Below the pieces are notes generated by a model. That model did not search any database. It saw only the letters and a list, made by a program, of their open reading frames with translations, and was not told the origin of the DNA. A stretch of 33,569 bases of DNA, taken from a virus. Within the stretch, counting starts at the first letter, position 1. Each line of letters starts with the position of its first letter. Below are positions 8,043-33,460 of this stretch, in pieces. Location: IMG/VR virus record IMGVR_UViG_3300014492_000023, positions 1 to 33,569 of that record; one strand, 5' to 3'. The position numbers were made by a program, and so were the translations under genes.

Positions 8043-10039
8043 TGTTAGGTGGCGAACGTACAATAGGTTTAGTGAATGAAGTTCCTTATAAACCATCATT
8101 AAGCCAGACGGCTAGTGCGTCATTTAATAAACCATTAGAACAAGTTGGGCAACTGAGGGATTATATATTTCCAGGGGCATCGACTGAAGAAGAACGGAAA
8201 AAAACGGCTGAGCGACTATCTGTTATTAACGAATTAACGGGCGATCCGCGTCTAGGGATAGGGCAAAAGTCGTTAAATGCTGTAAGTAATATCGTCGGAG
8301 GCATCATCCCAACACTACCCTTTGCATTCGTAGGTGGCGGCATAGGGGCAGGCGTTGCTGGAGCCGTTGGATTTGGTGCAAGAAAATTAGCTGTAGAGGC
8401 AGGCAGCGAGGCCATAACAGCAGGTTATTTAAGCACACAAGTACCGCTCGCGAATCTTGCTGAAAGCGCATTGAGTCATTATTTACCGAAAGTAAGTGGT
8501 GCTGCAATTACTTCAGGGGTTGTTGAAGGCTATGCAGGCTATAAAGGAATGATTATCCCAGAACATTTTAGCGAGCATTACAATGCGATTGAAAATACAT
8601 TGGATGCTAGTCATGCTATTCAAGATTGGGGTGCTGATAACTATGGTTTTTTGCTGGGTGGCGCACCATTAGCAGCAGGATACGTGTTATTCAAAGGTGT
8701 ACGGGGAATAATTGCTCACAGAGCCGCGAATGCAACGAGTGCTGCATTAGAAAAAGAAACGGGTCGTATTTTACAGCAACATAACGAGACATTGGAATTA
8801 AATAAAGTTAAAGAAGGTGAAGTTGCAGCGCGAGAAGCAAAAGTTTCAGAGCTGCAAGGGCATTTACAACAAGCCGAAGAAATGGGCGCCATTACCCCTG
8901 AAATGCATAAGTGGTATCTGGATTATTTAGAAAATCCAAATGACACTACAAAAGTGCATGAAGGGGGATTAAATGTTTTGAAATCATTACAAATCCCTTA
9001 TGACCGTGTGACAGGACGCGTATGGAATGAAGTATTAAGTCGTGAGGGGATTAAAAATTTAAAAGGTTCCTTGTTCGATCAGGGAATTACACAATTTAGT
9101 GAAGAAGAAAGCCAGTTATTATCCAGTTATATCATTCATAATGAGCTAGATAGTTACATTGGAAATATGAGAGACAACCCTAATTTATTGAATGCCATTC
9201 AAGGTATGACGCATCAAATCGGTATGAGAATTGAAGCAAACAGCGCAGCGCTGAAGGCGTTTGATGTGGCATTAGAAAAAAATATATCCAAAGGACTTAG
9301 AAAAAATGAATTATTTTCCCAACAAAGTATTTATGAGCACCTTAAAAATATAGGAGTATATGAAAGAACCCATGTTCCATATGAAGTACCAAGAGAAGTA
9401 ATGCAAAAGTTGGCATTAGAAAGGCAATTAAAAAAAATAGTAGCCAGGGAAACATTAGAATCCGAACATCTATATCAAGAAGGGGCGCATCTTGAGATAA
9501 AAAAAGAACTAAAAGAGATAAAATTACATACTCCAGAACAAGAAATAAGGCATTTACAGGAAAAATTATTTCCAAAAGGTAAATTAAGCAAAAAATTTAA
9601 GAGTAGCATGGCATATAATAGACTTACTGAGCTAGCTCAAGTGTGGCCTAACGCGCAACACTTGCTTGATAGAATTAACATGGAAGCTCTTAATGCTAAG
9701 CAGCGAGGTCTGAATGATATTCTAAAAAAGTTTACTGACATGGTTGATAATAATTCACAGGCGTTAGCAGATCCAGAATTGGTTAAGCGCTACCTTAACA
9801 GCAGGTTAGAAAAGGCTGTTCCATTTGCAAAAGAGCTTGAAAAAGCATCGGAAATAAAAGCTGAAGTCTCACATAGTAAGAGTGAAACCCTTTTTAATGA
9901 AGAATCAAAGCAAACAGTTCAAACATCCGAATTAGAATTTGCAAAAAATGATTTTGAAGGTAGCGAAAAACGCTTTAAACAATTTAAAGAAAATGAAGCA
10001 GCCCTTAATGAATTGATTAAATGTCAACTTGGTGAATAG
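8042..10039 (+). CDS. Internal virion / ejection protein with hydrophobic N-terminal segments
   Basis: A 665-residue protein. Residues about 84-112 are a Gly/Ala-rich hydrophobic stretch (IVGGIIPTLPFAFVGGGIGA...), with a second near 205-225 (YGFLLGGAPLAAGYVLFKG), so the N-terminal third could insert into membranes. Residues about 235-290 and most of the C-terminal half are charged, helical and likely coiled coil. This is the pattern of proteins that build the trans-envelope ejection channel. No enzyme motif is seen. It sits between two other large internal proteins with almost no spacing. Confidence 0.6.
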   Translation: MLGGERTIGLVNEVPYKPSLSQTASASFNKPLEQVGQLRDYIFPGASTEEERKKTAERLSVINELTGDPRLGIGQKSLNAVSNIVGGIIPTLPFAFVGGGIGAGVAGAVGFGARKLAVEAGSEAITAGYLSTQVPLANLAESALSHYLPKVSGAAITSGVVEGYAGYKGMIIPEHFSEHYNAIENTLDASHAIQDWGADNYGFLLGGAPLAAGYVLFKGVRGIIAHRAANATSAALEKETGRILQQHNETLELNKVKEGEVAAREAKVSELQGHLQQAEEMGAITPEMHKWYLDYLENPNDTTKVHEGGLNVLKSLQIPYDRVTGRVWNEVLSREGIKNLKGSLFDQGITQFSEEESQLLSSYIIHNELDSYIGNMRDNPNLLNAIQGMTHQIGMRIEANSAALKAFDVALEKNISKGLRKNELFSQQSIYEHLKNIGVYERTHVPYEVPREVMQKLALERQLKKIVARETLESEHLYQEGAHLEIKKELKEIKLHTPEQEIRHLQEKLFPKGKLSKKFKSSMAYNRLTELAQVWPNAQHLLDRINMEALNAKQRGLNDILKKFTDMVDNNSQALADPELVKRYLNSRLEKAVPFAKELEKASEIKAEVSHSKSETLFNEESKQTVQTSELEFAKNDFEGSEKRFKQFKENEAALNELIKCQLGE

Positions 10040-17502: not shown

Positions 17503-18021
17503 CTAAAAAGGGATGTCATCGTCCAGATCTGGAGATTGTGGTACAACTGTTGGCGGAGCATCTTCTTTTTGTTTTGGTGGCTCTATTGGGTTTTTAATTG
17601 TATCACCATCACAAACAAAGTCTTTAACGTCATTGCGGTCTGGCCACATTTCCCCTGATCCATCAGTTTTAAGCGTACCTTTCTTGATAACAATGTGAGC
17701 TTTTCCTGATTTACTCAAGGTGCGAGCCATATCAAAGCTGCCGTTCTCATAATCAAGAATCATGCCAATTGTTTTGGCGTAATGCCTAAGTTTGTAAGCA
17801 AAATTGCCATCGCCTGAAATAAACGTGTAAACAACACGCTCACGGTTTTCATTATCCCACACCAACAATTTTAATTTAGCCATATCGATGCCATTTTTAT
17901 CGCGAAGTGGCTTATTAAATTTATCGGTAACATGGACTTCGATCACTTCAAAGGCATAAATTCCTTCGTCCATGACATTCATACTTTGAATTTGTGCTTC
18001 TGTATAAGGTGTGTATCGCAT
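17503..18021 (-). CDS. Single-strand DNA-binding-like protein with SSB-type acidic tail
   Basis: A 172-residue protein. The last residues, DLDDDIPF, match the acidic C-terminal tip of bacterial SSB (DDDIPF), which binds SSB-interacting proteins. The N-terminal ~125 residues are beta-rich (YAFEVIEVHVTD, KLKLLVWDNENR, VVYTFISGDG) and resemble the DUF669-type proteins found with phage recombinases; the linker is Pro-rich (from about 140). It lies last in an operon with a Sak4-like ATPase and a Gp157-like protein, supporting a role in phage single-strand annealing recombination or replication. The acidic tip probably recruits host SSB partners. The DUF669 call is tentative; the tail is directly visible. 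Confidence 0.65.
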   Translation of the reverse strand: MRYTPYTEAQIQSMNVMDEGIYAFEVIEVHVTDKFNKPLRDKNGIDMAKLKLLVWDNENRERVVYTFISGDGNFAYKLRHYAKTIGMILDYENGSFDMARTLSKSGKAHIVIKKGTLKTDGSGEMWPDRNDVKDFVCDGDTIKNPIEPPKQKEDAPPTVVPQSPDLDDDIPF

Positions 18022-18028
18022 TACTTTC

Positions 18029-18520
18029 TCACTTAATCTCTAGTTTGATTTTACGTTGAATCGTAGCACCTGGCACGTCAACACCTTCATTCAATACCTC
18101 TTTCAACATAATTTTATCAACCGAGGTAGTGGTTTTTTCACGCCAAAATTCAGCGGGAATTAGATTTTCGTCAAACACGTCCACCGATGGAGGGCATGTT
18201 TTGAGTCGAATTTTAAAATAGGGGGATGTTTTAATTTCATTAATTGATAACTTTTGTAGGTTAAATTGTAAATAATCCGAAAGGGATTGTATCTTGTTTG
18301 TTAACTTACTCTTTCTGGATGCCATCTCTTTAATTGCTTCAGCAATCATTGTTTCTTCTGCTTCGATATTTTTTATATAAGCTGCTACCGAGACAGCCTT
18401 GTATTCAAATTCTTGTTGGAGGGCATCAAGATTATCTAGATGTTCTTGTAATAACTCGCCGTCCTCACTTATGTTATTGAATATTGATTGTACTTCGTTA
18501 GTTATTTCATATAGTTTCAT
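18029..18520 (-). CDS. Gp157-like helical protein of the recombination module
   Basis: A 163-residue protein with the features of the phage Gp157 family: MKLYEI.. start, long charged coiled-coil helices (about 5-100), then a conserved beta segment around FKIRLKTCPPSVDVFDENLIPAEFW (split here by family resemblance) with the P-x-x-F/W pattern and a terminal basic strand. The family is widely found next to phage single-strand annealing or Sak4-type recombinases. Its start overlaps the stop of the upstream ATPase gene by 14 bases, indicating coupled translation. Confidence 0.75.
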   Translation of the reverse strand: MKLYEITNEVQSIFNNISEDGELLQEHLDNLDALQQEFEYKAVSVAAYIKNIEAEETMIAEAIKEMASRKSKLTNKIQSLSDYLQFNLQKLSINEIKTSPYFKIRLKTCPPSVDVFDENLIPAEFWREKTTTSVDKIMLKEVLNEGVDVPGATIQRKIKLEIK

Positions 18521-19394
18521 TTTTGTTTTGCTCCGACATTGTTAATTTAGATTTGAGGTATTCAATAATAGAATTCATGTGTTTGCGATCCATCTCATCC
18601 CAGCTATTGGCCTCTCCTTTATTAAGCCATTTTTCAATAATTTCAGGCTTTATATTCATAAGCTTAATGTAGTTTTCAATTTGACTTATCTGGGAAGGAG
18701 TGGCTAGTAATTCCTGACAATCTTTCTCAAGAATTTCACGTCCATAGCGGTTTGCTATTTCATCATAACTAAACTGGAATCTATCGGTTTCTTGAAAAGA
18801 TTCTAGCCGTGTTTTTTTAATTATTGCTTCACGAATTCTACCTTTTTTATTAATCTCAAATACCAAATCAAACAAGTAGTCGATTTTTTTATAACCATCG
18901 AATGTTTGACCTAGAACGGTCATATTATCGCCATAAAGATTTTTAGAATGACACGTGATGATGACATTCATATCAACCTTAATTAATAGGCTTAATAACT
19001 GTTTCATTTTGCGATCAGCAGCAATGTAGTGGCCGCCATGCGCCATGCCATCAGGATTCTTAGGCGACATTCTATCGAATGCGCATTTTTCAATGAGGTT
19101 ATTGTATATAACGGTTAAGGGATCGATTATTAATGTTTTATAGGAATGCTTTTCTGTTGCAAGTGCTTTCACTTCAGATAACACGTCATCAAAGTCAATT
19201 GTATGAAATACGCATCCCCCATTTTCTTTAATTTTCTCCAAGTATTGCTGATGTTCAAAGCCTTTTTCTGTATCAATTAAATAAGGTCGCGGAAAGCTAA
19301 TGGCCGCCATCGTTTTACCTGAGCCAGCAACCCCATACATTAATGTTTTTAATCGCTTTTCAACTAATTCTGGTTGTATTCCTCTTAAAGCCAT
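18507..19394 (-). CDS. Sak4-like AAA ATPase (RecA-like phage recombinase)
   Basis: A 295-residue ATPase. Walker A GVAGSGKT is at residues 21-28, preceded by KTLMYG; Walker B LIID is at 87-90. YLIDTEKG (37-44) fits the AAA_24 family, which includes phage Sak4-like recombinases working with SSB. The C-terminal part has helices (about 230-290) that could contact partners. Located upstream of the Gp157-like and SSB-like genes in one leftward operon, a typical recombination module. Start at 19394 overlaps the end of the small membrane protein gene. Confidence 0.8.
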   Translation of the reverse strand: MALRGIQPELVEKRLKTLMYGVAGSGKTMAAISFPRPYLIDTEKGFEHQQYLEKIKENGGCVFHTIDFDDVLSEVKALATEKHSYKTLIIDPLTVIYNNLIEKCAFDRMSPKNPDGMAHGGHYIAADRKMKQLLSLLIKVDMNVIITCHSKNLYGDNMTVLGQTFDGYKKIDYLFDLVFEINKKGRIREAIIKKTRLESFQETDRFQFSYDEIANRYGREILEKDCQELLATPSQISQIENYIKLMNIKPEIIEKWLNKGEANSWDEMDRKHMNSIIEYLKSKLTMSEQNKNETI

Positions 19395-19525
19395 GACTGC
19401 ACGCTCCCTATAGCAAAAATAATAATAATGATTGCAATGATATCAATCCAATTTAATCGTGAAATGGAAAAGGTTTTTAAACGCTTTTTTGGTGTAATAA
19501 AATCTTGCATGTTATTTTTATTCAT
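19385..19525 (-). CDS. Small single-pass membrane protein
   Basis: A 46-residue protein. The start at 19525 overlaps the stop of the upstream gene (GATGAATAA), showing coupling; a longer reading from 19579 is a shadow of that gene. A basic N-terminus (residues 1-20) precedes a membrane span (about 26-45, WIDIIAIIIIIFAIG). It lies in the early recombination operon. Function unknown; could be a lysis-control, membrane-tethering or host-takeover peptide. Confidence 0.5.
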   Translation of the reverse strand: MNKNNMQDFITPKKRLKTFSISRLNWIDIIAIIIIIFAIGSVQSWL

Positions 19526-19769
19526 CCCAGCTCCCAAACGGTTGTGATTCCGCATACATCCTGTCCATACAAGCATCATTGAGAAATTCTTGAAGGTAAG
19601 TATCTAAGTTACCAGTGATTTGCATAAATTGAGATAGCAGCTCTAATTTATCAGCAGAATCTAATTCTGCAATAGAAAGCTTGTATTCATTATCTATGAG
19701 CGTGGCTTTTTTGAAAGCTAGATTTTGTGCCAGTCTTATAAGAGGTACTTCGAGTGTTTTCGTTGTCAT
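19518..19769 (-). CDS. Unknown early protein, first gene of leftward operon
   Basis: An 83-residue acidic protein (ending QPFGSWDE) with a Leu-rich helical middle (LDSADKLELLSQFMQI). It is the first gene behind the leftward promoter of the switch, at the place where lambda-type phages have early genes such as cIII or N. It is not a CI-type repressor: no HTH or peptidase motif. Family not recognised. Confidence 0.6.
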   Translation of the reverse strand: MTTKTLEVPLIRLAQNLAFKKATLIDNEYKLSIAELDSADKLELLSQFMQITGNLDTYLQEFLNDACMDRMYAESQPFGSWDE

Positions 19770-19817
19770 GTTTCTCTCGTTATGTTTTGTTGCGTTATGT
19801 TTTGTTACTACCCTTGC

Positions 19818-19845
19818 ATGATAACAGATTACTTAACAATGTCAA
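19818..19845 (-). promoter_or_regulatory. Leftward early promoter (PL-like)
   Basis: On the minus strand TTGACA (19845-19840) and TATCAT (19823-19818) are separated by 16 bases, a near-consensus sigma70 promoter. The -35 overlaps the first operator copy. The leader contains two tandem copies of a 14-base repeat (19778-19806). Confidence 0.8.
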
Positions 19846-19887
19846 CCAAAAGTTTGCATTTAGATAACTATTGGTTTACATTTGGTT
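19844..19887. promoter_or_regulatory. Operator cluster of the Cro-like switch
   Basis: AACCAAAAGTT (19844-19854), its inverse AACTATTGGTT (19866-19876) and a poorer inverse copy (19877-19887) cover the gap between the two divergent promoters. The first two have centres 22 bp apart, the same as at 26504-26536, so they are likely binding sites of one dimeric regulator, probably the HTH protein at 19930. Confidence 0.65.
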
Positions 19888-19903
19888 GTCATTCACCTAC
19901 TAT
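19875..19903 (+). promoter_or_regulatory. Rightward early promoter (PR-like)
   Basis: TTTACA (19875-19880) and TACTAT (19898-19903) with a 17-base spacer form a good sigma70 promoter 27 bases before the HTH gene. Its -35 lies within the operator cluster, so the HTH protein can repress its own expression. Confidence 0.8.
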
Positions 19904-19929
19904 GCGGGCTGTAAAAATAGGGGGTTTTA

Positions 19930-20133
19930 ATGTCATCACCAGTCATACAAATAAGAAAGACGTTAGGAATGACGCAAACTGATTTTGGAAAAAAAATGGG
20001 TCTTAGTCGTACTATGATTGATAATTATGAGCATCAGCGTAAATCGCCAAGCTATAAAATGATTAAAAAATTAATTGAAGTGGCTAACGAGAATAATATT
20101 GATATTAAAATTGAGGATTTTTTTAGAGAATAA
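19930..20133 (+). CDS. Cro/CI-family helix-turn-helix regulator
   Basis: A 67-residue DNA-binding protein made essentially of one HTH_3 domain: helix 1 IQIRKTLG, helices 2-3 MTQTDFGKKMGLSRTMIDN (about 14-32) and the ending YEHQRKSPS. Size and position, at the head of the rightward early operon and preceded by GGGGG as ribosome site, are those of a Cro protein. No CI-type repressor with C-terminal peptidase domain exists opposite it, so the phage is probably not lysogenic by a lambda-like mechanism, or the repressor gene lies elsewhere. It likely binds the AACC-type operators at 19844-19887 and 26504-26536. Confidence 0.85.
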   Translation: MSSPVIQIRKTLGMTQTDFGKKMGLSRTMIDNYEHQRKSPSYKMIKKLIEVANENNIDIKIEDFFRE

Positions 20134-20134
20134 T

Positions 20135-20186
20135 TTATCCACAAAAAGTGTGGGTAAGTGTGTGGATGAATATGGTGAAAGCCATA
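20135..20186. other. DnaA-box cluster with hairpin, candidate replication origin
   Basis: TTATCCACA at 20135-20143 is a perfect DnaA box. Two more boxes with one mismatch each follow on the opposite strand (20149-20157 and 20161-20169). A 6-bp hairpin (ATATGG 20169-20174 / CCATAT 20181-20186) and AT-rich DNA lie next to them. Three boxes in 35 bp in a non-coding gap of 111 bp directly after the Cro gene suggest an origin used by host DnaA. Confidence 0.55.
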
Positions 20187-20244
20187 TAAATACAGGTTAT
20201 CTTGTGGTGATCAAAATCTGTCTAAATTAATGAGAGTAAATTAA

Positions 20245-20415
20245 ATGAATGAGAAAAAAACGCCTGATTTAACAATTCGACTTGGAGATATAAAAGAAAA
20301 AGATTTGACACCTTACGAATTATTTATGCGAAAAATCATAAATGCCGTTTTGGGAGTAATCGACGAAGGAATGAGCAATAAATTATTAAATATTCATGGG
20401 ATTCAAGTGAGATAA
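20245..20415 (+). CDS. Small early protein, unknown
   Basis: A 56-residue protein beginning MNEKKTPDLTIRLGDIKEKD; residues 20-56 appear helical (TPYELFMRKIINAVLGVIDEG). GAGAG upstream is a modest ribosome site. It is the first gene after the candidate origin and second of the rightward operon. Confidence 0.5.
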   Translation: MNEKKTPDLTIRLGDIKEKDLTPYELFMRKIINAVLGVIDEGMSNKLLNIHGIQVR

Positions 20416-20436
20416 ATCATCTAGTAATACAGAGTC

Positions 20437-20467
20437 TTGACAATATTAATGATATTGAAATTAGAAT
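20437..20467 (+). promoter_or_regulatory. Possible promoter
   Basis: TTGACA (20437-20442) and TAGAAT (20462-20467) are separated by 19 bases, longer than ideal. It lies in the 105-bp gap before the gene at 20521. Confidence 0.35.
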
Positions 20468-20520
20468 ATCAAAATACTATTAGAGTGTTTTATTGTGAAT
20501 AAAGAAAATAGGGACTAGCG

Positions 20521-20694
20521 ATGACTAATAAAGTTAAATTTACACAGGATCAAATAGACCACATTTGTTATCAAATTGGTGACTGGTACTTGATGATGAA
20601 ACCATTGCTTGAAGGTCAACACAACCTTGGTTACATGAAAGAAAAACTTAAAACGATGATTTGTGGGGAAGATGATGAGTTGCAAGAAATGTGA
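20521..20694 (+). CDS. Small early protein, unknown
   Basis: A 57-residue protein (starts MTNKVKFTQDQIDHICYQIG) with AGGGA upstream. Two helices are likely (8-35 and 40-57). The end overlaps the next two short frames. No family recognised. Confidence 0.5.
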   Translation: MTNKVKFTQDQIDHICYQIGDWYLMMKPLLEGQHNLGYMKEKLKTMICGEDDELQEM

Positions 20695-20788
20695 TTGCGA
20701 AAGGAATCTATACATTCAGAATTTACAGCACAGAAATGAAATGGACAATGGAACGCTTAACCGAATCATTTATACGTTTAAGGCGTGA
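20672..20788 (+). CDS. Very small cysteine-rich protein
   Basis: A 38-residue frame starting MMSCKKCDCE behind GGGGA, overlapping the previous gene by 23 bases. The CxxCxC motif could bind a metal. It is supported mainly by the good ribosome site, and no homologue is recognised. Confidence 0.4.
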   Translation: MMSCKKCDCERNLYIQNLQHRNEMDNGTLNRIIYTFKA

Positions 20789-20852
20789 TATGGCGTGGTT
20801 ACAGTACAGCATTACAAACGACAGAAAACCACTTGAAAAACTAGAATTTTAA
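20691..20852 (+). CDS. Small basic protein, unknown
   Basis: A 53-residue frame from GTG at 20691, overlapping the preceding stop as GTGA, or 38 residues from ATG at 20736. The part from 20736 (MKWTMERLTESFIRLRRDM) is a basic amphipathic helix. The start is uncertain, as neither has a strong ribosome site. Overlaps the Cys-rich frame. Confidence 0.4.
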   Translation: MIAKGIYTFRIYSTEMKWTMERLTESFIRLRRDMAWLQYSITNDRKPLEKLEF

Positions 20853-20872
20853 TTAAAAAACGGAGGGCTTTA

Positions 20873-21061
20873 ATGACACCAGAAGAAAGAATGAATCATT
20901 GTTATTTAGGTGACGGAGTTTACATAGAACGCACACCACTCCATCTAATACTTAGAACGGGTTCTCACCGTGATAGCGAGTGCGATAACAAAATTTACTT
21001 AGAACCTAGCGTGTTCGAAAACCTTTTAGAATGGGTGAGACATCTTAAGGAAATAAAATGA
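20873..21061 (+). CDS. Small early protein, unknown
   Basis: A 62-residue protein behind the strong ribosome site GGAGGG. Starts MTPEERMNHCYLGDGVYIE and appears as a small alpha/beta domain with a C-terminal helix. The stop overlaps the next start (ATGA). Confidence 0.6.
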   Translation: MTPEERMNHCYLGDGVYIERTPLHLILRTGSHRDSECDNKIYLEPSVFENLLEWVRHLKEIK

Positions 21062-21147
21062 ATTTTATAGAGCCGGGTTGTGTTTTATTTGGAATGGCTG
21101 TAGGCGAAATACTTTACCTATTAGTTCGATGCAATTTTATAAATTAA
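21058..21147 (+). CDS. Tiny membrane peptide
   Basis: A 29-residue frame coupled to the upstream gene by ATGA. Residues about 7-24 (GCVLFGMAVGEILYLLV) are hydrophobic enough for one membrane span. Function unknown. Confidence 0.4.
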   Translation: MNFIEPGCVLFGMAVGEILYLLVRCNFIN

Positions 21148-21157
21148 GGCTATTAAA

Positions 21158-21358
21158 ATGACTTGTTATAAAGATAAAACATTTTGCGCATCTCCGAAAT
21201 GCAGGAATCAATGTGGGCGTAAAATTACAGATGAACAGCAACGGGAAGCTCAACGCTTAGGATTGCTTATTTCATGGTCTTATTTTTGCGGTACACCAGC
21301 AAGAGGATTTTATACCAATGATTTTAGGAATAATAATGAACCTACCAGAAAAATATAG
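21158..21358 (+). CDS. Small Cys-rich protein (MTCYKDKTFC type)
   Basis: A 66-residue protein. The start MTCYKDKTFC and five cysteines (3, 10, 14, 19, 44 approx.) resemble small proteins often encoded in early regions of enterobacterial phages; the Cys pattern suggests a metal site. An acidic/charged helix follows. It overlaps the next gene by 23 bases. Confidence 0.55.
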   Translation: MTCYKDKTFCASPKCRNQCGRKITDEQQREAQRLGLLISWSYFCGTPARGFYTNDFRNNNEPTRKI

Positions 21359-21677
21359 GGTGAAATCGCCTCTTTTACCTAAAGAGCTTCAATCTTATTT
21401 AGTTCCATATCAAAAACATCAATTAAAGGTGCACTTAAGGGTTATTGCATCCTTTGAGCCTGATGGATGGAATCACGTAAGCGTTTCATTAGCGCATAGA
21501 AATCCATCATGGAATGAAATGTGTTTTATTAAAGATTTATTTTTCGATGAGGAAGATTTGTGTTTGCAATTTCATCCTAAAAAATCTGAATATGTTAATT
21601 TGCATAAACATTGTTTGCATATTTGGCAGCCTCCTAAAGAAATTGAAAAATATTTATTAAGAGAAGGGGATAACTAA
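21336..21677 (+). CDS. DUF7694-like protein
   Basis: A 113-residue protein from ATG 21336 (AGGAA upstream; ATG 21318 is an alternative that adds 6 residues). The core has the signature I recognise from this phage family: GW-HVSVSLAHR-PSW-EM, followed by CFIKDLFFDEEDLCLQFHP, KKSEYVN and HKHCLHIW. Function of the family is not known. It lies in the rightward early operon, typical of accessory genes in gammaproteobacterial phages. Confidence 0.65.
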   Translation: MNLPEKYRVKSPLLPKELQSYLVPYQKHQLKVHLRVIASFEPDGWNHVSVSLAHRNPSWNEMCFIKDLFFDEEDLCLQFHPKKSEYVNLHKHCLHIWQPPKEIEKYLLREGDN

Positions 21678-21679
21678 TA

Positions 21680-21846
21680 TGAATGATTTCACTAAAAAAG
21701 AACTAGAAATAATATTATTTTGGGGAATGGATAGAGCTGAAAATGTTAGCTTACATGAGTTTAAGTCAGATGGTCATGATGTTGTTTATAAAAAGGTTCA
21801 TTCCATGATCGAAAATTACTATGATAAAGGTGAGTTTCATGAATGA
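21680..21846 (+). pseudogene. MNDFTK-family gene with an apparent frameshift
   Basis: The frame opens MNDFTKKELEIILF and is the first of four genes with this start. Read straight it ends at 21808 after an uncharacteristic tail. In the neighbouring frame from about 21721 the sequence continues WGMDRAENVSLHEF and ends VHSMIENYYDKGEFHE at 21846, matching the SMIDNY ending of the family copy at 22244. One missing base in the T run near 21719-21721 would explain this. It could be a true mutation or a sequencing error. Confidence 0.5.
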
Positions 21847-22018
21847 CTTCACGAAAGACAACATAACAACACTCACGCAAAGCTGTCAGAAATGTCATAG
21901 TAAGTTGTGCGATACAGCAGCAGTATTTTGGAACGAAGACCGCACTAAAATAATCGAGACGCGATGCTCCTGTTCTAATCGTATGTGTGATTACATATTG
22001 GTGATTAAGAATGAATGA
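21839..22018 (+). CDS. MNDFTK-start zinc-ribbon-like small protein
   Basis: A 59-residue protein starting MNDFTKDN, behind AAGGTGAG. Cysteines at SCQKCHSKLC and RCSCSNRMC could form a zinc-binding knuckle. The N-terminal cassette is shared with neighbouring genes, but the remainder is unrelated. ATG overlaps the preceding stop region (TCATGAATGA). Confidence 0.6.
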   Translation: MNDFTKDNITTLTQSCQKCHSKLCDTAAVFWNEDRTKIIETRCSCSNRMCDYILVIKNE

Positions 22019-22049
22019 CTTCACGAAAGAAGATCCGATAACCATTTAA
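22011..22049 (+). CDS. 12-residue MNDFTK remnant frame
   Basis: ATG at 22011 overlaps the previous stop (ATGAATGA) and reads MNDFTKEDPITI then stop. It shares the first 20 bases exactly with the copies at 21839 and 22244. It looks like the remnant of a lost gene or a translational coupling leader for the next gene, not a functional protein. Confidence 0.3.
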   Translation: MNDFTKEDPITI

Positions 22050-22071
22050 GAGCTGATTATATGAGGCGACG

Positions 22072-22251
22072 ATGACCATGAGCAATAATGTAATTAATTT
22101 ATCTAGCAGATACAAAGTTATTCCATGTCAATGCGGATGTTACCATTTCTTTATCAAAGAAAGTTTGATTGCAGTATGTCAAGAATGTGACCATGAGATT
22201 ATTATTCACAACTCACTTTATGCGCGAACGGAGAATTCTACAGATGAATGA
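22072..22251 (+). CDS. Small zinc-ribbon-like protein
   Basis: A 59-residue protein behind GAGG. Two Cys pairs, PCQCGC and VCQEC (about residues 20-25 and 38-42), with nearby His are typical of a zinc ribbon. Ends GATGAATGA, overlapping the next start. Could bind nucleic acid; family not recognised. Confidence 0.5.
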   Translation: MTMSNNVINLSSRYKVIPCQCGCYHFFIKESLIAVCQECDHEIIIHNSLYARTENSTDE

Positions 22252-22345
22252 CTTCACGAAAGAAGAGTTACAAATAATATTGCTTGATAAAGCTCTAAGA
22301 GAAATAATCCAATCCATGATTGATAACTATTTCGAGCATGATTAG
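22244..22345 (+). CDS. Short MNDFTKEEL family protein
   Basis: A 33-residue protein, MNDFTKEELQIILLDKALRE then SMIDNY and EHD. This is the shortest complete-looking copy of the family; the same start and end bracket the frameshifted gene at 21680. It ends the rightward early gene block, 58 bases from the convergent replication gene. Confidence 0.5.
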   Translation: MNDFTKEELQIILLDKALREIIQSMIDNYFEHD

Positions 22346-22403
22346 CCCGCAAAACCTCTAAATTTAGCCATGGTTAAACGATCCCATTTACTCATGGCTT
22401 ACA

Positions 22404-23261
22404 TCATATAGCCCTCATATTTTGAGTGGATTGCAATAATTGAATTAATTCTTGGGCTGCCCTTTTCTTTTCTTCAGATAAATTATTTTTCAATAATGGA
22501 TATTTTTGAAAATGTTTATATTCTGAAATTAAAGTTTTTTCAACGTCATTAAGGTCACGCCATAATTTATAAGCCACGGAATCGGGCTTTTTATCATACA
22601 GTTCTACATTTTCTCTTTTAATCCAGGCTAAAAACCGGTGAGGTGAAACATTTTGTGAATTTGGCTTCATCGCATAATACATTACGCATTCCTCAAGCAT
22701 CTCCTCAATTGTGACATCTACTTTTTTAAATTTATTATTGAACAATTCGTTGCATTTTCTATCTTTCAAGCATTGCTGGTTTAATTTATTTTGTAACGCC
22801 AGGTATTTGTCTGGTAAAAAAATAGACAAAGAATTCTCGTTTTTTGTTTGTGTGGGCGAAGCCTTTTCTAACGGTTTGTCCTCACTAAAGGTTTTATTAA
22901 TATTCTTTATATTCTGGGTGCACTGTGGTGCATGCATGGGGTGCACTGTAGTGCATGCTTGTACATTTTCAGTACTATCTATCTCGACAAGCCTTATCTG
23001 GCGCGTGATGTAGCGCTTTTTCCCTTTTGTAATTCTTAGTAATTCGCCAGCTTTTTCAAAAAATTCGATGGCATATTGAACTTGGCGAATTTCAAGATTA
23101 GTTCGTGAGGCAATCGTTTCATTGTTTAGGTAGCATGGAAGATTTTTATTCAGGAATTGAAAGATAGTTTCGTAAACTTTGAGGTAGCCAAGAGTTAAGC
23201 CAGGTAAATCCAAAATGTAAGATGGAACGACAAACCAGGTTTCTTTGTAATTATTTGACAT
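22404..23261 (-). CDS. Replication protein with N-terminal winged helix
   Basis: A 285-residue protein, the only plausible replication initiator here. Residues about 18-85 form a helix-turn-helix/winged domain (LTLGYLKVYETIFQFLN, CYLNNETIASRTNLEIRQV) like that of phage and plasmid replication proteins. A low-complexity linker (about 100-150) is followed by a C-terminal domain with the pattern SPHRFLAWIKREN (near 212-224) typical of primosome-like DnaT or helicase-loader relatives. No ATPase motif. It is transcribed leftward, against the early small genes, behind a long structured leader. Confidence 0.6.
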   Translation of the reverse strand: MSNNYKETWFVVPSYILDLPGLTLGYLKVYETIFQFLNKNLPCYLNNETIASRTNLEIRQVQYAIEFFEKAGELLRITKGKKRYITRQIRLVEIDSTENVQACTTVHPMHAPQCTQNIKNINKTFSEDKPLEKASPTQTKNENSLSIFLPDKYLALQNKLNQQCLKDRKCNELFNNKFKKVDVTIEEMLEECVMYYAMKPNSQNVSPHRFLAWIKRENVELYDKKPDSVAYKLWRDLNDVEKTLISEYKHFQKYPLLKNNLSEEKKRAAQELIQLLQSTQNMRAI

Positions 23262-23397
23262 TTTTTAACATCCCATTGTTGCGTTAACAAAGGACATCCG
23301 TTAAAATTCACGAACTCTTGTGGAGTGTTGTTGTCGTGTAACGGATGCCTTCAGCTTGAACAGCCCTGTTTTTGGCAGGGCTAAAGTTCAACCCCAC
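23262..23397 (-). promoter_or_regulatory. Structured leader of the replication gene (two long hairpins)
   Basis: Hairpin A (23356-23391): TTGAAC and AGCCCTG pair with their complements around a 7-base loop, giving 13 bp with a 3-base bulge. Hairpin B (23295-23347): outer 9 bp CATCCGTTA/TAACGGATG, then 5 bp CACGA/TCGTG and 4 bp ACTC/GAGT, with internal loops. A weaker TTAAC/GTTAA pairing (23264-23286) brackets GGGAT ahead of the start codon. May be an RNA control element, a small RNA or an origin structure. Confidence 0.65.
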
Positions 23398-23403
23398 CAT
23401 GAT

Positions 23404-23433
23404 ATTTTATTCTTAATTAATTTTCTACGTAAA
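23404..23433 (-). promoter_or_regulatory. Candidate promoter of replication gene
   Basis: On the minus strand TTTACG (23433-23428) and TAAAAT (23409-23404) with an 18-base spacer. It would place the start of transcription near 23397, just before hairpin A of the structured leader. Confidence 0.45.
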
Positions 23434-23461
23434 AACAAACCCTAACACTGAGCTTTTTTAT

Positions 23462-23490
23462 TTGTTATGTCAATTTAGGTTTGATAGGAT
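23462..23490 (+). promoter_or_regulatory. Rightward promoter before lysozyme block
   Basis: TTGTTA (23462-23467) and TAGGAT (23485-23490) with a 17-base spacer, 27 bases before the ATG at 23517, which has AGAGGA as ribosome site. Confidence 0.7.
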
Positions 23491-23516
23491 AAATAAAACA
23501 ACTCAGAGGATTACTG

Positions 23517-23753
23517 ATGTCAAAGAACGAATCTGCAAAAAATCAACCCGTACCTGTAGTAACAGAACGTACCCGTAAACCACGTGAAGGCTTTAAAAAT
23601 CCTAATAGAGGTATCCCGGTTGCTGAAGGGTTAAATATGCAAGATGTGCCACGTGAGATGATTATGCGACACCTCAAAGAGAATGAGCAGCTTGCTAAAC
23701 AGCGTTTTCAGCAAAAGTATGGCCATCAGTTTGGCGGTCAACAAACGTTCTAG
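23517..23753 (+). CDS. Small basic protein before lysozyme, unknown
   Basis: A 78-residue, strongly basic N-terminal protein (RTRKPREGFKNPNRGIP) with a Gln-rich helical C-terminus (HLKENEQLAKQRFQQ). First gene behind the rightward promoter, 9 bases before the lysozyme. Unknown function; possibly a structural or DNA-binding protein. Confidence 0.6.
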   Translation: MSKNESAKNQPVPVVTERTRKPREGFKNPNRGIPVAEGLNMQDVPREMIMRHLKENEQLAKQRFQQKYGHQFGGQQTF

Positions 23754-23762
23754 GGGTAATAC

Positions 23763-24314
23763 ATGGCGCATTTTGATTCATGTGTGCAATATGTTTTACG
23801 CCATGAGGGTGGTTTATCCCAAGACAAAGCGGATCCAGGTGGAATAACTAATTTTGGTATTTCATTACGATTTTTGCGGGAAGTGGATGCCGATACGTTA
23901 AAACGAATAGGGATTTTTGGGGAAGTAACGGAACAAACAATACGAGAGTTAACGCAAGAACAAGCAGAAAAACTTTATTATTCTGAATTTTGGGTGAAAG
24001 CGCCTTTTGATAAAATTCAAAACGGTATCAATGGAAAATATATTTTTGATATGAGCGTCAATCACGGAATGGTTGAAGCTACGAGATTAACACAACGTGC
24101 ATGTTGTGCAGCGCAAAAAGTTAAAGATTACGTCAAGGACGACTCCTTATTTGGTGCTAAAACACTTTCAGCCGTTAACCAGGCATCTTTTATGCTGATA
24201 CCCGCATTGATTGCTACCCGTGCAGGTTATATGCGTCAACTAGTTGCTGTCACGCCTAGACTTGAGGTATTCTTAGACGACTGGTTAACACGATGTTTTG
24301 ATGTGAGCTTTTAA
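23763..24314 (+). CDS. Endolysin, GH108 lysozyme with peptidoglycan-binding C-terminus
   Basis: A 183-residue muramidase. The start FDSCVQYVLRHEGGLS contains the catalytic Glu (E15) in the HEGG motif, followed by DPGGITNFGIS, both diagnostic of glycosyl hydrolase family 108. The C-terminal half (about 95-183) matches the usual PG-binding domain of these enzymes, including the MSVNHG segment. It cleaves host peptidoglycan for lysis. No signal peptide is seen, so a holin is needed; none is clearly adjacent. Confidence 0.9.
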   Translation: MAHFDSCVQYVLRHEGGLSQDKADPGGITNFGISLRFLREVDADTLKRIGIFGEVTEQTIRELTQEQAEKLYYSEFWVKAPFDKIQNGINGKYIFDMSVNHGMVEATRLTQRACCAAQKVKDYVKDDSLFGAKTLSAVNQASFMLIPALIATRAGYMRQLVAVTPRLEVFLDDWLTRCFDVSF

Positions 24315-24333
24315 CAATTGAAGTGAGGCTATC

Positions 24334-24540
24334 ATGAACTACGGGACAGATTTGAAATTGAAAAGTAATAACGGCTCTCATCCGGGCGGTAAGGATAAAC
24401 CACGCCCAGGCGCTGCAAAAGGTCAAGGCATGGGGATGGGTGGTTATGATGCAAGTTCCGTAAACAAAGCGATGGATAGTGTTAAAGGTGGTGGTGGAAA
24501 GCCCATGTACTATTGTGGTGGCTCTAAGATGGGGCGTTAA
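24334..24540 (+). CDS. Glycine-rich small protein, unknown
   Basis: A 68-residue protein rich in Gly and Lys (SHPGGKDKPRPGAAKG, GMGMGGYD, KGGGGKPMYYCGGSK), likely disordered. Good ribosome site AGTGAGG. It belongs to a run of small basic proteins following the lysozyme. Confidence 0.55.
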   Translation: MNYGTDLKLKSNNGSHPGGKDKPRPGAAKGQGMGMGGYDASSVNKAMDSVKGGGGKPMYYCGGSKMGR

Positions 24541-24542
24541 TC

Positions 24543-24740
24543 ATGGCTATTGACCACGAAGCGCATAAAATACGTATTAAAGCTGTTTCTGATCGCATGA
24601 GTCATCCTATGACATACAACGATGCGGGTGCGCCTAGGATGGATGCAGCAGACCAGCACATGCATGAAGATGGAAAAGAGGAATATCGTAAAATGCGTCG
24701 AGATGGACGTTTACGAAACATGATCACAGGTGGCAAGTGA
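24543..24740 (+). CDS. Small charged protein, unknown
   Basis: A 65-residue protein rich in His, Met, Arg and Asp, starting MAIDHEAHKIRIKAVSDRM. Two bases separate it from the previous stop. Helical and hydrophilic; family unknown. Confidence 0.55.
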   Translation: MAIDHEAHKIRIKAVSDRMSHPMTYNDAGAPRMDAADQHMHEDGKEEYRKMRRDGRLRNMITGGK

Positions 24741-24976
24741 ATCATAAGCAGTTTATGGAAACGGTCAAAGAGTACCGCATGCGTTCCGGTCATGCCATAA
24801 ACTACTATGATGGCGGTTATTCTGCTACAGATACAGGCAGTACCACTAAAAGACCTGTGCAAAAAGGCTCGCGGGCAAAGGATAAAATGCGTGATTTGCA
24901 CGCGCGAGCTGATGGAAGTGTGAATCGAAATCCACGTTATAAAAATGTTGAGGCTTTGATTAACGATCCTCAATAA
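24737..24976 (+). CDS. Small basic protein, unknown (GTG start)
   Basis: A 79-residue protein read from GTG at 24737, overlapping the preceding stop as GTGA. It is basic and Tyr-containing (GHAINYYDGGYSATD...), low in hydrophobic residues. Its end overlaps the convergent leftward gene by 17 bases. Confidence 0.5.
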   Translation: MNHKQFMETVKEYRMRSGHAINYYDGGYSATDTGSTTKRPVQKGSRAKDKMRDLHARADGSVNRNPRYKNVEALINDPQ

Positions 24977-25088
24977 CCATTTCGTTAAGCTCAACAAAAT
25001 GGTTTTCTTGCTCTCTTAACTCTTGAATCTTGAGGTATTCGGTTTCTAGTTCGTCCTCATCACCGTGTAAATTGTCGTACCTTCCCAT
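24960..25088 (-). CDS. Small acidic protein, unknown
   Basis: A 42-residue acidic helical protein (MGRYDNLHGDEDELETEYLK...) behind GGAG. It is last in the leftward accessory cluster. The end overlaps the convergent gene and a likely terminator hairpin. Confidence 0.45.
   Translation of the reverse strand: MGRYDNLHGDEDELETEYLKIQELREQENHFVELNEMVIEDR
24975..25004. terminator. Likely bidirectional terminator between convergent genes
   Basis: AACCATTTCGTT (24975-24986) and AACAAAATGGTT (24993-25004) form a stem of 12 pairs with one mismatch and a 6-base loop, followed rightward by TTTTCTT. It overlaps the stop of the rightward gene and lies within the last codons of the leftward one. Confidence 0.45.
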
Positions 25089-25100
25089 TTGAATAACTCC

Positions 25101-25322
25101 TTAATCATTGTCAGGAAAACTACGGCCTAACTTCATAAGGCGATCATATTCTCTTAAATGTGATGTGTATAAATTAAATATGTAGTCTTGAGCCTGTTCT
25201 ATTTTTCTGTGACCAAAACCCACAATTTTTAATGCGGGCATTGTAAATAAATCATAAGGATTCAAGACAAAGTAGGTTTGGTGCAGATAAAGGATTTTGT
25301 AGTCGTTGATATTTGGTTGCAT
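25101..25322 (-). CDS. Small protein, unknown, leftward accessory cluster
   Basis: A 73-residue protein. The start at 25322 is chosen for AAGGAG upstream; the longer reading from 25394 has no site. It starts MQPNINDYKILYLHQTYFVL and looks globular with aromatic residues. Function unknown; co-transcribed with the LPD29-like protein upstream. Confidence 0.55.
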   Translation of the reverse strand: MQPNINDYKILYLHQTYFVLNPYDLFTMPALKIVGFGHRKIEQAQDYIFNLYTSHLREYDRLMKLGRSFPDND

Positions 25323-25418
25323 GTTTTTTTCTCCTTCCCAAGCTAGACAGAGTGAATTTAAACCTGTTAGAGACGATTTGAGCCGATTAGTCACTAACAG
25401 GGCGATAGAATTAGCTGT

Positions 25419-25817
25419 TTATAAACATACTTCCCAAAGTTTGTGACGTATAAATCCGCGAGGGTTGTAACCTTGCATGTGAACTGAGCTATCGTACATA
25501 TCATTCAAATTTTCCCAGTCCCCATAATATGCTTTGTATTCAGCAAACCTTGCTTCATAGATATCTTCACTAATATCACGGCTTAAAAATACATAGTCCA
25601 CTTGCGGTACGTCATCACGACGATTTGAATATTCGTAGCTGTCTGTCATGCCGTCAAAGCGTCCTAGCTTGTACTTTGATGTTATTGCTTCAACCATTGC
25701 AACAGTCACTCCATTAGTCCAGCTTACGCGCACACAGTTGTAATCACTGGTTACGCTGAATTTGATATGTGGAAAATGTTTTTTTAAATCAGCTTTTACT
25801 ATTCTGCCTATTGCCAT
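25419..25817 (-). CDS. LPD29-like protein
   Basis: A 132-residue protein whose N-terminal half matches the pattern of large polyvalent-protein domain 29: a basic helix AIGRIVKADLKKHFP, then HIKFSV, a strand VRVSWTNGVT, helix VEAITSKYK and the conserved FDGMTD. The domain occurs in phage and plasmid polyvalent proteins; its biochemical role is unclear, but these genes are usually in accessory or anti-host regions. The C-terminal half (80-132) is not recognised. It is the third gene of the leftward cluster, behind a gap of 192 bases without a gene. Confidence 0.6.
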   Translation of the reverse strand: MAIGRIVKADLKKHFPHIKFSVTSDYNCVRVSWTNGVTVAMVEAITSKYKLGRFDGMTDSYEYSNRRDDVPQVDYVFLSRDISEDIYEARFAEYKAYYGDWENLNDMYDSSVHMQGYNPRGFIRHKLWEVCL

Positions 25818-26009
25818 GTTATGTTTCCCGTTTCGTTATGTTAAGTATTATTAATTGGCGGCATTTTACGGTTCGTGCCACAAGCCCACACTTTCTGAAA
25901 ATAGCTATGTTTGAGTTTATTTCTTTCTTCTTTAAACCAGCGATCCTATGACCATTATTATTTCTTAATCGTCTGATATTTTCCGCTATGAATCTCGCAA
26001 TTAAAGTTC

Positions 26010-26213
26010 CTACTTAAAATCTGTCAATTCTATGTATTGCACGATTTCGCTTATCTCATCGAAGCCAAGTGTTATGTCATCTATCCATAAAAAATAATCA
26101 TGAGATGTAAAATCTTTATTTTTTGACAAATCGCCATCATCCCAGCTTTTTTGCTCTTTTATCATTTCCTCTTGAGTTAGTATGTGGATGCCTTCTCTAA
26201 GTTTGATATTCAT
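26010..26213 (-). CDS. Small acidic protein, unknown
   Basis: A 67-residue protein rich in Asp and Glu, starting MNIKLREGIHILTQEE, behind AAGGGG. Contains WIDDITLGFDEI. The 192 bases downstream (25818-26009) have only a short repeat pair like the one in the early leader (CGTTATGTT) and no gene. Function unknown. Confidence 0.55.
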   Translation of the reverse strand: MNIKLREGIHILTQEEMIKEQKSWDDGDLSKNKDFTSHDYFLWIDDITLGFDEISEIVQYIELTDFK

Positions 26214-26262
26214 TGCTGTACCCCTTGTTAAGCTTCTAATTTTGTACGTTCTTTGTTTTTCA

Positions 26263-26466
26263 CTAATTATGCTTTGAGTCCTGAGTAATGCTTTCCGTCA
26301 ACCATTTTTGATCAATTTGCTTTAATCTGATGTAACGCTCCAGTTTTTCTAATACATTCAATGCCTGATCAATGGTCATGCTGTTAAATTGTTTGATGTA
26401 GTGGCGGGTGTCAAAATCAATTGACAAGTCGTTAATGGTATTTTCATAAAGTTCTATGTGATTCAT
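26263..26466 (-). CDS. Small protein, first gene of leftward accessory operon
   Basis: A 67-residue protein; start at 26466 is chosen because AAGGA precedes it while the upstream ATG at 26499 lies inside the promoter. It begins MNHIELYENTINDLSIDF and is charged and helical (NVLEKLERYIRLKQ). It is read from a promoter that carries the phage operator repeats. No family recognised. Confidence 0.55.
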   Translation of the reverse strand: MNHIELYENTINDLSIDFDTRHYIKQFNSMTIDQALNVLEKLERYIRLKQIDQKWLTESITQDSKHN

Positions 26467-26498
26467 TTTTTTATCCTTTGTTAGTAAGTTACAGAGCA

Positions 26499-26536
26499 AT
26501 GATAACCGATAGTTTGCATAATGTCAACCGATAGTT
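26499..26536 (-). promoter_or_regulatory. Operator-controlled leftward promoter of accessory cluster
   Basis: TTGACA (26527-26522) and TATCAT (26504-26499), 17-base spacer, form a near-consensus leftward promoter. Two copies of AACCGATAGTT (26504-26514 and 26526-26536), 22 bp apart, overlap the spacer, -10 edge and -35. The longer context (CAACC.ATAGTTTGCAT) matches the operator at 19844. Confidence 0.75.
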
Positions 26537-32661: not shown

Positions 32662-32886
32662 ATGAGTCAAGAAATTGTTAATTACATTAAATCAAATTTA
32701 CGGTCAATGTACCCAATGTACAGATTTGAAGTAACTAATTCACAAGATGGTACGAAATATAATATTTCAGTCTTTAAAGGAACAGGAATTTTAAGTGCTT
32801 ATACTGCATTCTCGACAACACCACGCGATGTTTTTTGGCAAAATATTCAAACTTGGATGAAACCCGTGATTGCAACCTATCGTTGA
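32662..32886 (+). CDS. Small protein, unknown
   Basis: A 74-residue protein starting MSQEIVNYIKSNLRSMYPMYRFEV, with a beta-rich middle and an aromatic end. The stop codon lies within a 20-bp palindrome. Function unknown. Confidence 0.5.
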   Translation: MSQEIVNYIKSNLRSMYPMYRFEVTNSQDGTKYNISVFKGTGILSAYTAFSTTPRDVFWQNIQTWMKPVIATYR

Positions 32887-33242: not shown

Positions 33243-33460
33243 CGTTTAAAGTAAGCCCTATTAAACGCACTCCGGTAATCCATTAAGACGTTTTCAAACT
33301 TGGCCGTTAGATACGTCGTAATGGAGTGAGGTGTTAATATTTAGGCAACCTTACGTCTTGCGATCAAACATAATATTGGCCGGGCTACCCGTAACCCAAT
33401 AGTTATCGATAGGCACACGCTTGTTGCGTGTATTTGTTTATACTATTGAGGTACGCAATC
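33243..33460 (+). promoter_or_regulatory. Long structured leader of the capsid mRNA
   Basis: The leader holds a long hairpin: CCATTAAGACG (33280-33290) pairs with CGTCGTAATGG (33314-33324, one mismatch), and CACTCC (33268-33273) can pair with GGAGTG (33323-33328) as an alternative lower stem. Further small hairpins: ATTGG/CCAAT enclosing CGGG/CCCG (33375-33399), and ACACGC/GCGTGT (33415-33431). No open frame of note. Ribosome site GAGGT (33448-33452) precedes the ATG. Confidence 0.6.

Follow-up and report, generated by a model that had tools for sequence, protein, structure and literature searches.

A single 67-residue helix-turn-helix (HTH) protein very probably governs three early transcription units in the viral genome analysed here. 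From the comparisons below, we predict that it binds the same kind of operator at a leftward promoter (PL), at the rightward promoter of its own gene (PR) and at a distal promoter, repressing all three units together. The genome is the complete IMG/VR record IMGVR_UViG_3300014492_000023, and the whole stretch of 33,569 nt is henceforth called the window. Its proteins include portal and tail-protein homologues, an endolysin, Sak4 and Gp157, which marks it as a small podovirus-like phage; its closest cultured relatives are distant, the portal being ~25% identical to those of Methylophilales and Pelagibacter phages. The distal promoter lies ~6.6 kb from the PL/PR switch, upstream of the terminase small-subunit gene, and heads a leftward accessory operon. 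The promoters, the sites and the HTH gene are the following:

19818..19845, minus strand: PL, leftward early promoter, TTGACA-16-TATCAT, 11/12 consensus (sigma70-like)
19875..19903, plus strand: PR, rightward promoter of the HTH gene, TTTACA-17-TACTAT, 9/12 consensus
26499..26527, minus strand: distal leftward promoter, TTGACA-17-TATCAT, 11/12 consensus
19844..19854, plus strand: operator site 1, AACCAAAAGTT, centre 19849; adjoins and touches the upstream side of the PL -35 box; kept with changes in the relative G001
19866..19876, minus strand: operator site 2, AACCAATAGTT, centre 19871, 22 bp from site 1; touches the PR -35 box
19877..19887, minus strand: weaker third site, AACCAAATGTA, offset from site 2 by one 11-bp step, over the PR -35 and spacer; identical in G001
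26504..26514, plus strand: distal operator copy A, centre 26509, within the distal promoter spacer and touching the -10; orthologous copy in G001
26526..26536, plus strand: distal operator copy B, centre 26531, 22 bp from copy A; touches the -35; orthologous copy in G001
19930..20133, plus strand: HTH_3 (lambda-repressor-like) protein, 67 residues, the proposed regulator (PF01381, E=1e-10)

Operator sites at the switch and the distal promoter

The first-pass annotation of the window had described an operator family, AACCRAWAGTT, occurring as two pairs at good sigma70 promoters, with paired centres 22 bp apart and a shared longer context. The four sites lie where it had placed them and in the orientations it gave (19844 plus, 19866 minus, 26504 plus and 26526 plus), both pairs have the 22-bp spacing, and scanning for the promoter consensus places them at PL (11/12), PR (9/12) and the distal promoter (11/12). 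The motif scan of the whole genome that it had called for returned exactly these four matches, against 0.155 expected from a first-order Markov model of the record (maximum of two in 200 simulations). With one mismatch allowed there were eight matches for 4.1 expected, and looser matches to AACCRAWAGTT therefore mean little. The longer context was also borne out: scanning the window for the 16-mer AACCRAWAGTTTGCAT with at most two mismatches found only the three sites that carry this context, although its TGTCAA part is the complement of the -35 box. The remainder, CC..AGTTTGCATTTA, lies outside the promoter consensus. What the annotation drew too narrowly is the recognised unit, which is broader than AACCRAWAGTT and sits on an 11/22-bp lattice that includes an overlooked third site, TACATTTGGTT, at 19877-19887.

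The 11-mer and 16-mer scans revealed no further good operator copies in the window, and nothing like the many stoperators in transcribed regions of L5-type phages was encountered. Only three of 2.9 million viral contigs contain the 18-mer TCAACCRAWAGTTTGCAT. Two are fragments of the window phage or of a near-identical one, one bearing the switch and the other the distal promoter; the third match, in the unrelated contig L049, falls in coding DNA and was set aside as chance.

The 11/22-bp phasing extends beyond the window. Autocorrelation over ten switches gave peaks at lags 11 (combined z 8.0), 22 (6.1) and 33 (3.0), and over eight distal promoters at lags 11 (z 6.2) and 22 (4.1). The arrays of L062 and L159 are plain 11-bp direct repeats, and the palindrome-like sites of the window, 19877-19887 included, fall on the same lattice.

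The proposed reader of these sites belongs to the HTH_3 family by several measures: its PF01381 match is above the cut-off, its AlphaFold2 model (pLDDT 89.7) has five helices, and its structural relatives in the PDB are CylR2, C.Esp1396I and the 434 repressor.

Operators change with the HTH protein in related phages

From one phage to the next, the sites of the two loci vary together and with the HTH protein. In G001, whose HTH protein is 83-85% identical to that of the window, paired operators are present at both orthologous places, with their cores kept and with parallel base changes (the switch has CAACTAAAAGTTCTCA for CAACCAAAAGTTTGCA, the distal site CAATTAAAAGTTATCA for CAACCGATAGTTTGCA), and the distal promoter retains the 22-bp pair. 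The HTH protein of G004 is only 42% identical and has a different recognition helix; its operator differs from that of the window (TTACATWATGTAA and GTAARATTTTAC), does so at both orthologous places, and at the distal promoter recurs with the same 22-bp spacing. When 14-mers in common with the G004 distal promoter were sought without bias, they led to the switch on the same contig.

Two further scans, one using the gene that opens the PL operon and one using the terminase small subunit, added more relatives. An orthologous HTH gene lies beside ten switches, and G014 provides an eleventh. Six contigs carry both a switch and a distal locus (those of G012 and G014 were scanned mostly, not entirely), and in each of them no stretch matches the switch as well as the distal promoter does, none of the 270-857 other 135-bp segments equalling it. 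In a matrix scoring every switch against every distal region, the true pairing of these six same-contig pairs was the best of all (1/720 permutations), and it was still the best when two same-sample pairs were added (1/40,320); the diagonal averaged 21.3 and the off-diagonal 11.2. The L062/L153 pair had been picked by similarity and was left out of the final permutation tests. For G014, which was added after the test had been designed, its own distal partner ranked top in the six-contig matrix, while in the eight-pair matrix another distal region scored higher by 0.2.

Operators are more alike where the recognition helices are more identical (Mantel r = 0.60, p ~0.001). Phylogeny contributes to this trend, and L062 is an informative exception. 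The first PL gene beside its switch is 84% identical to that of the window and 81% to that of L159, yet L062 shares its recognition helix (SRxMIYAYELGHS) and its operator unit (TTTATCATTCG) with L159 and not with the window.

A single HTH_3 gene in a probably lytic phage

Searching four phage records with PF00589 gave no integrase match (serine recombinases were not searched separately), and the Sak4 alignment, run against 84,980 bacterial and archaeal genomes, yielded no confirmed relative. HTH_3 matches revealed one such protein per genome in G000, G001 and G004, and with it no second regulator or CI partner. Together, the missing integrase, the single HTH_3 gene and the absence of relatives from the bacterial genomes suggest that the phage is probably lytic and that the protein is probably an early shut-off repressor of a lytic phage and not one half of a CI/Cro switch.

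The proposed regulation and its alternatives

The annotation had proposed that a Cro-like protein controls the PL operon, itself and the distal operon. Control of all three by the HTH protein fits every comparative test made here (G001, G004, the six contigs and the recognition helix), whereas "Cro-like" is apt for its mode of action only, because neither a CI partner nor an integrase was found. The predicted sequence of events begins with phage DNA that enters the cell free of repressor, when PL, PR and the distal promoter would all fire via the host sigma70 polymerase. HTH protein made from PR would accumulate and fill the 11-bp-phased sites over the -35 and spacer regions. The filled sites would then shut PL with its Sak4/Gp157 recombination genes, PR and the distal accessory operon together, giving a coordinated early burst that switches itself off.

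Several observations weigh against this joint repression. The Mantel correlation between helix and operator reflects phylogeny in part, and two close pairs account for most of it. The sequence shared by switch and distal region is weak in G014 (score 14.4), and the form of the unit varies: the window, G001 and G004 have palindrome-like units, L062 and L159 an 11-bp direct repeat. All genomes are metagenomic. Furthermore, the centres of the sites adjoining PL and PR fall near -38 and -39, positions from which lambda-family proteins can also activate. It is nevertheless unlikely that the same protein activates PL and the distal promoter, or both activates and represses them in the manner of lambda CI at PRM, and acts as a repressor only at PR. 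Site 1 and the copy at 26526-26536 would suit such a role, being centred near -38 and -39 and overlapping the -35 by only two bases. The second distal copy, by contrast, lies inside the spacer and touches the -10, where it should block polymerase, so that repression would be the natural outcome at this promoter. PL and the distal promoter are moreover near-consensus (11/12 each), which makes an activator unnecessary, and a site lies over the PR spacer.

The likeness of the two loci could also have arisen without the HTH protein as reader, if a host regulator or another phage regulator recognised the shared sequences or if the promoters were simply alike. The -35 box (TGTCAA/TTGACA) does lie within the shared block, and 11-bp direct repeats are typical of host response regulators too. 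We regard this as quite improbable: the shared sequence outside the -35 varies among phages and tracks the HTH protein and its recognition helix; a phage's own distal promoter is matched above those of other phages despite the same promoter elements; and each genome has a single HTH_3 protein. Recent duplication of one promoter segment, with no shared regulator, seems scarcely credible. In its favour, the switch and the distal promoter of several phages share unbroken matches of 25-52 bp, yet the sequence differs in G004, G012 and L159 and both copies remain matched in each. Duplication would thus need repeated independent events in many lineages, or selection, and selection that keeps both loci matched implies a shared binder.

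Beyond joint repression by the HTH protein itself, we tentatively suggest, as a possibility rather than a likelihood, that this is a CI-less lytic podovirus-like lineage with a portable module of a 67-residue repressor and an 11-bp operator array. The switch and a distant, variable cargo operon would have their copies of the module's sites rewritten in concert, each phage would thereby have an immunity type of its own without lysogeny, and a single-domain HTH protein would fill the array head-to-tail along one face of the DNA. The relatives form a natural series of about ten predicted repressor/operator specificities built on a single small protein scaffold, and several of these phages provide two genomic readouts each. 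In uncultivated phages, genes that follow such an operator-bearing promoter ahead of the terminase small-subunit gene are predicted to be early, repressor-controlled cargo. The series also raises the question of why repressor specificity should diverge fast without detectable lysogeny machinery; superinfection exclusion between lytic phages is one example of a possible cause.

Gene content of the PL and distal operons

The genes of the two leftward operons are the following:

19518..19769, minus strand: first PL-operon gene, 83 residues, no assigned function; 52-84% identical in relatives
18507..19394, minus strand: Sak4-like single-stranded DNA annealing ATPase, PL operon (phrog_124, AAA_24)
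18029..18520, minus strand: Gp157 / Gam-like end-protection protein, PL operon (PF05565, phrog_253)
17503..18021, minus strand: last PL-operon gene, 172 residues; no Pfam match, weak phrog_2698
26263..26466, minus strand: first distal-operon gene, 67 residues; a homologue heads the G001 distal operon
26010..26213, minus strand: distal-operon gene, 67 residues
25419..25817, minus strand: distal-operon gene with an LPD29 domain (PF18847, E=1.8e-18)
25101..25322, minus strand: distal-operon gene; homologue at G001 9760-9981
24960..25088, minus strand: last small open reading frame of the distal cluster, 42 residues, read from the sequence

The promoter and operators of the distal operon are retained although its cargo varies: in G001 a DnaJ-domain gene (PF00226, L050 10100-10594) takes the place of the LPD29 gene, which is missing there. 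Conversely, G002, G003, G005 and G006 have LPD29 but lack this HTH protein and this operator in their LPD29 promoter regions. We therefore discarded a link between operator and LPD29 cargo; the operator belongs with the switch and not with the cargo gene. For the cargo of the window, G001 and G004, PADLOC gave only weak JetB-like scores and no defence-system match worth naming. According to the paper that defined polyvalent proteins, several LPD-type domains that exist apart from such proteins are located close to structural genes of phages and may have a role early in invasion (PMC5512222). The cargo may have an early host-takeover or counter-defence role.

Other elements were seen in and around these operons. 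Repeats of (A)ACATAACG lie directly upstream of the first PL gene (19770-19802) and of the LPD29 gene (25817-25843) on the minus strand; those of the PL leader are kept in relatives and could be a leader or translation element. A palindrome, TTATTAATCGATTAATAA, is common to the LPD29 / terminase-small-subunit-like intergenic region of G003 (32810-32829, in L056) and G006 (272-289, L057). At 22404-23261 the window has a phrog_270-like replication initiator gene, and in the same place G001 and G004 encode different proteins of the same family.

The capsid leader

One more operator candidate, 33394-33404, precedes the capsid gene (33461) and matches the switch at 16/18 positions. It was rejected because phages whose operators are very different retain this sequence, which is part of a covarying hairpin leader. 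This conserved leader, AATATTGGCCG...CGTAACCCAATAGTTATCGATAGGC-hairpin-TACTATTGAGG, occupies 33360-33460 of the window, immediately upstream of the capsid ATG, and its motif occurs in 27 viral contigs. Six pairs of the hairpin are changed on both sides in seven sequences, and the outer stem would sequester GAGG, the ribosome site. An Rfam search of the window gave no match. The record is cut within the capsid gene (33569/1); relative to G001, a record of 34,051 bases with a terminal repeat of 127 bases, about 350 bases are absent between its end and its start.

Comparison with known systems

The layout resembles that of lambda CI/Cro in its divergent PL- and PR-like promoters, its clustered operators and the small HTH protein made from the rightward promoter. 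Here, unlike in lambda, there is no pair of antagonists, since each genome (G000, G001 and G004) has one HTH_3 protein and the leftward genes are recombination genes; no CI, second regulator or PF00589 integrase was found in the records searched (four for PF00589, serine recombinases not being searched separately). The 11/22-bp phasing and the recurrence of the sites at an accessory operon set the window phage apart as well. CylR2 and C.Esp1396I share the single-domain HTH_3 fold (66-82 residues) but are not phage early switches, and their sequence relation is at the level of the fold family only.

The nearest documented geometry is that of the P2 C repressor, which binds direct repeats 22 bp apart, centre to centre, within a promoter (PMC4752584). 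The window likewise has repeats at this spacing over an early promoter, together with a small HTH protein, the proposed repressor, at the early switch. However, P2 C has 99 residues, acts in the lysogeny of an integrating phage and has both half-sites in one promoter. The protein here has 67, the searches found no integrase, and a distant operon carries the same sites again. In N15 and phiKO2 one HTH repressor, CB, has clustered OR sites and two OL sites at the repA operon (PMC4997575), similarly combining a cluster with sites at another operon; these phages differ in their CB/Cro pair, their plasmid prophage and their 16-bp T-A-N10-T-A operators. The L5/Bxb1 mycobacteriophages have one repressor, no Cro analogue and scattered operators, with repressor and site specificities co-diverging (PMC6550527). 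By comparison of sequences, the phages studied here appear to share with them a single repressor per genome, operators remote from its gene and a specificity that covaries with the sites. L5 sites are 13-14 bp long and asymmetric, number ~30 per genome, lie mostly outside promoters and serve a temperate phage, whereas the sites found here are promoter sites at two loci only. Thus, single repressors with remote operators and co-diverging specificities were already known from L5-type phages, and remote OL sites from N15 and phiKO2. What appears to be new is the setting without CI or integrase, in which a compact 11/22-bp operator lattice is joined to a variable cargo operon.

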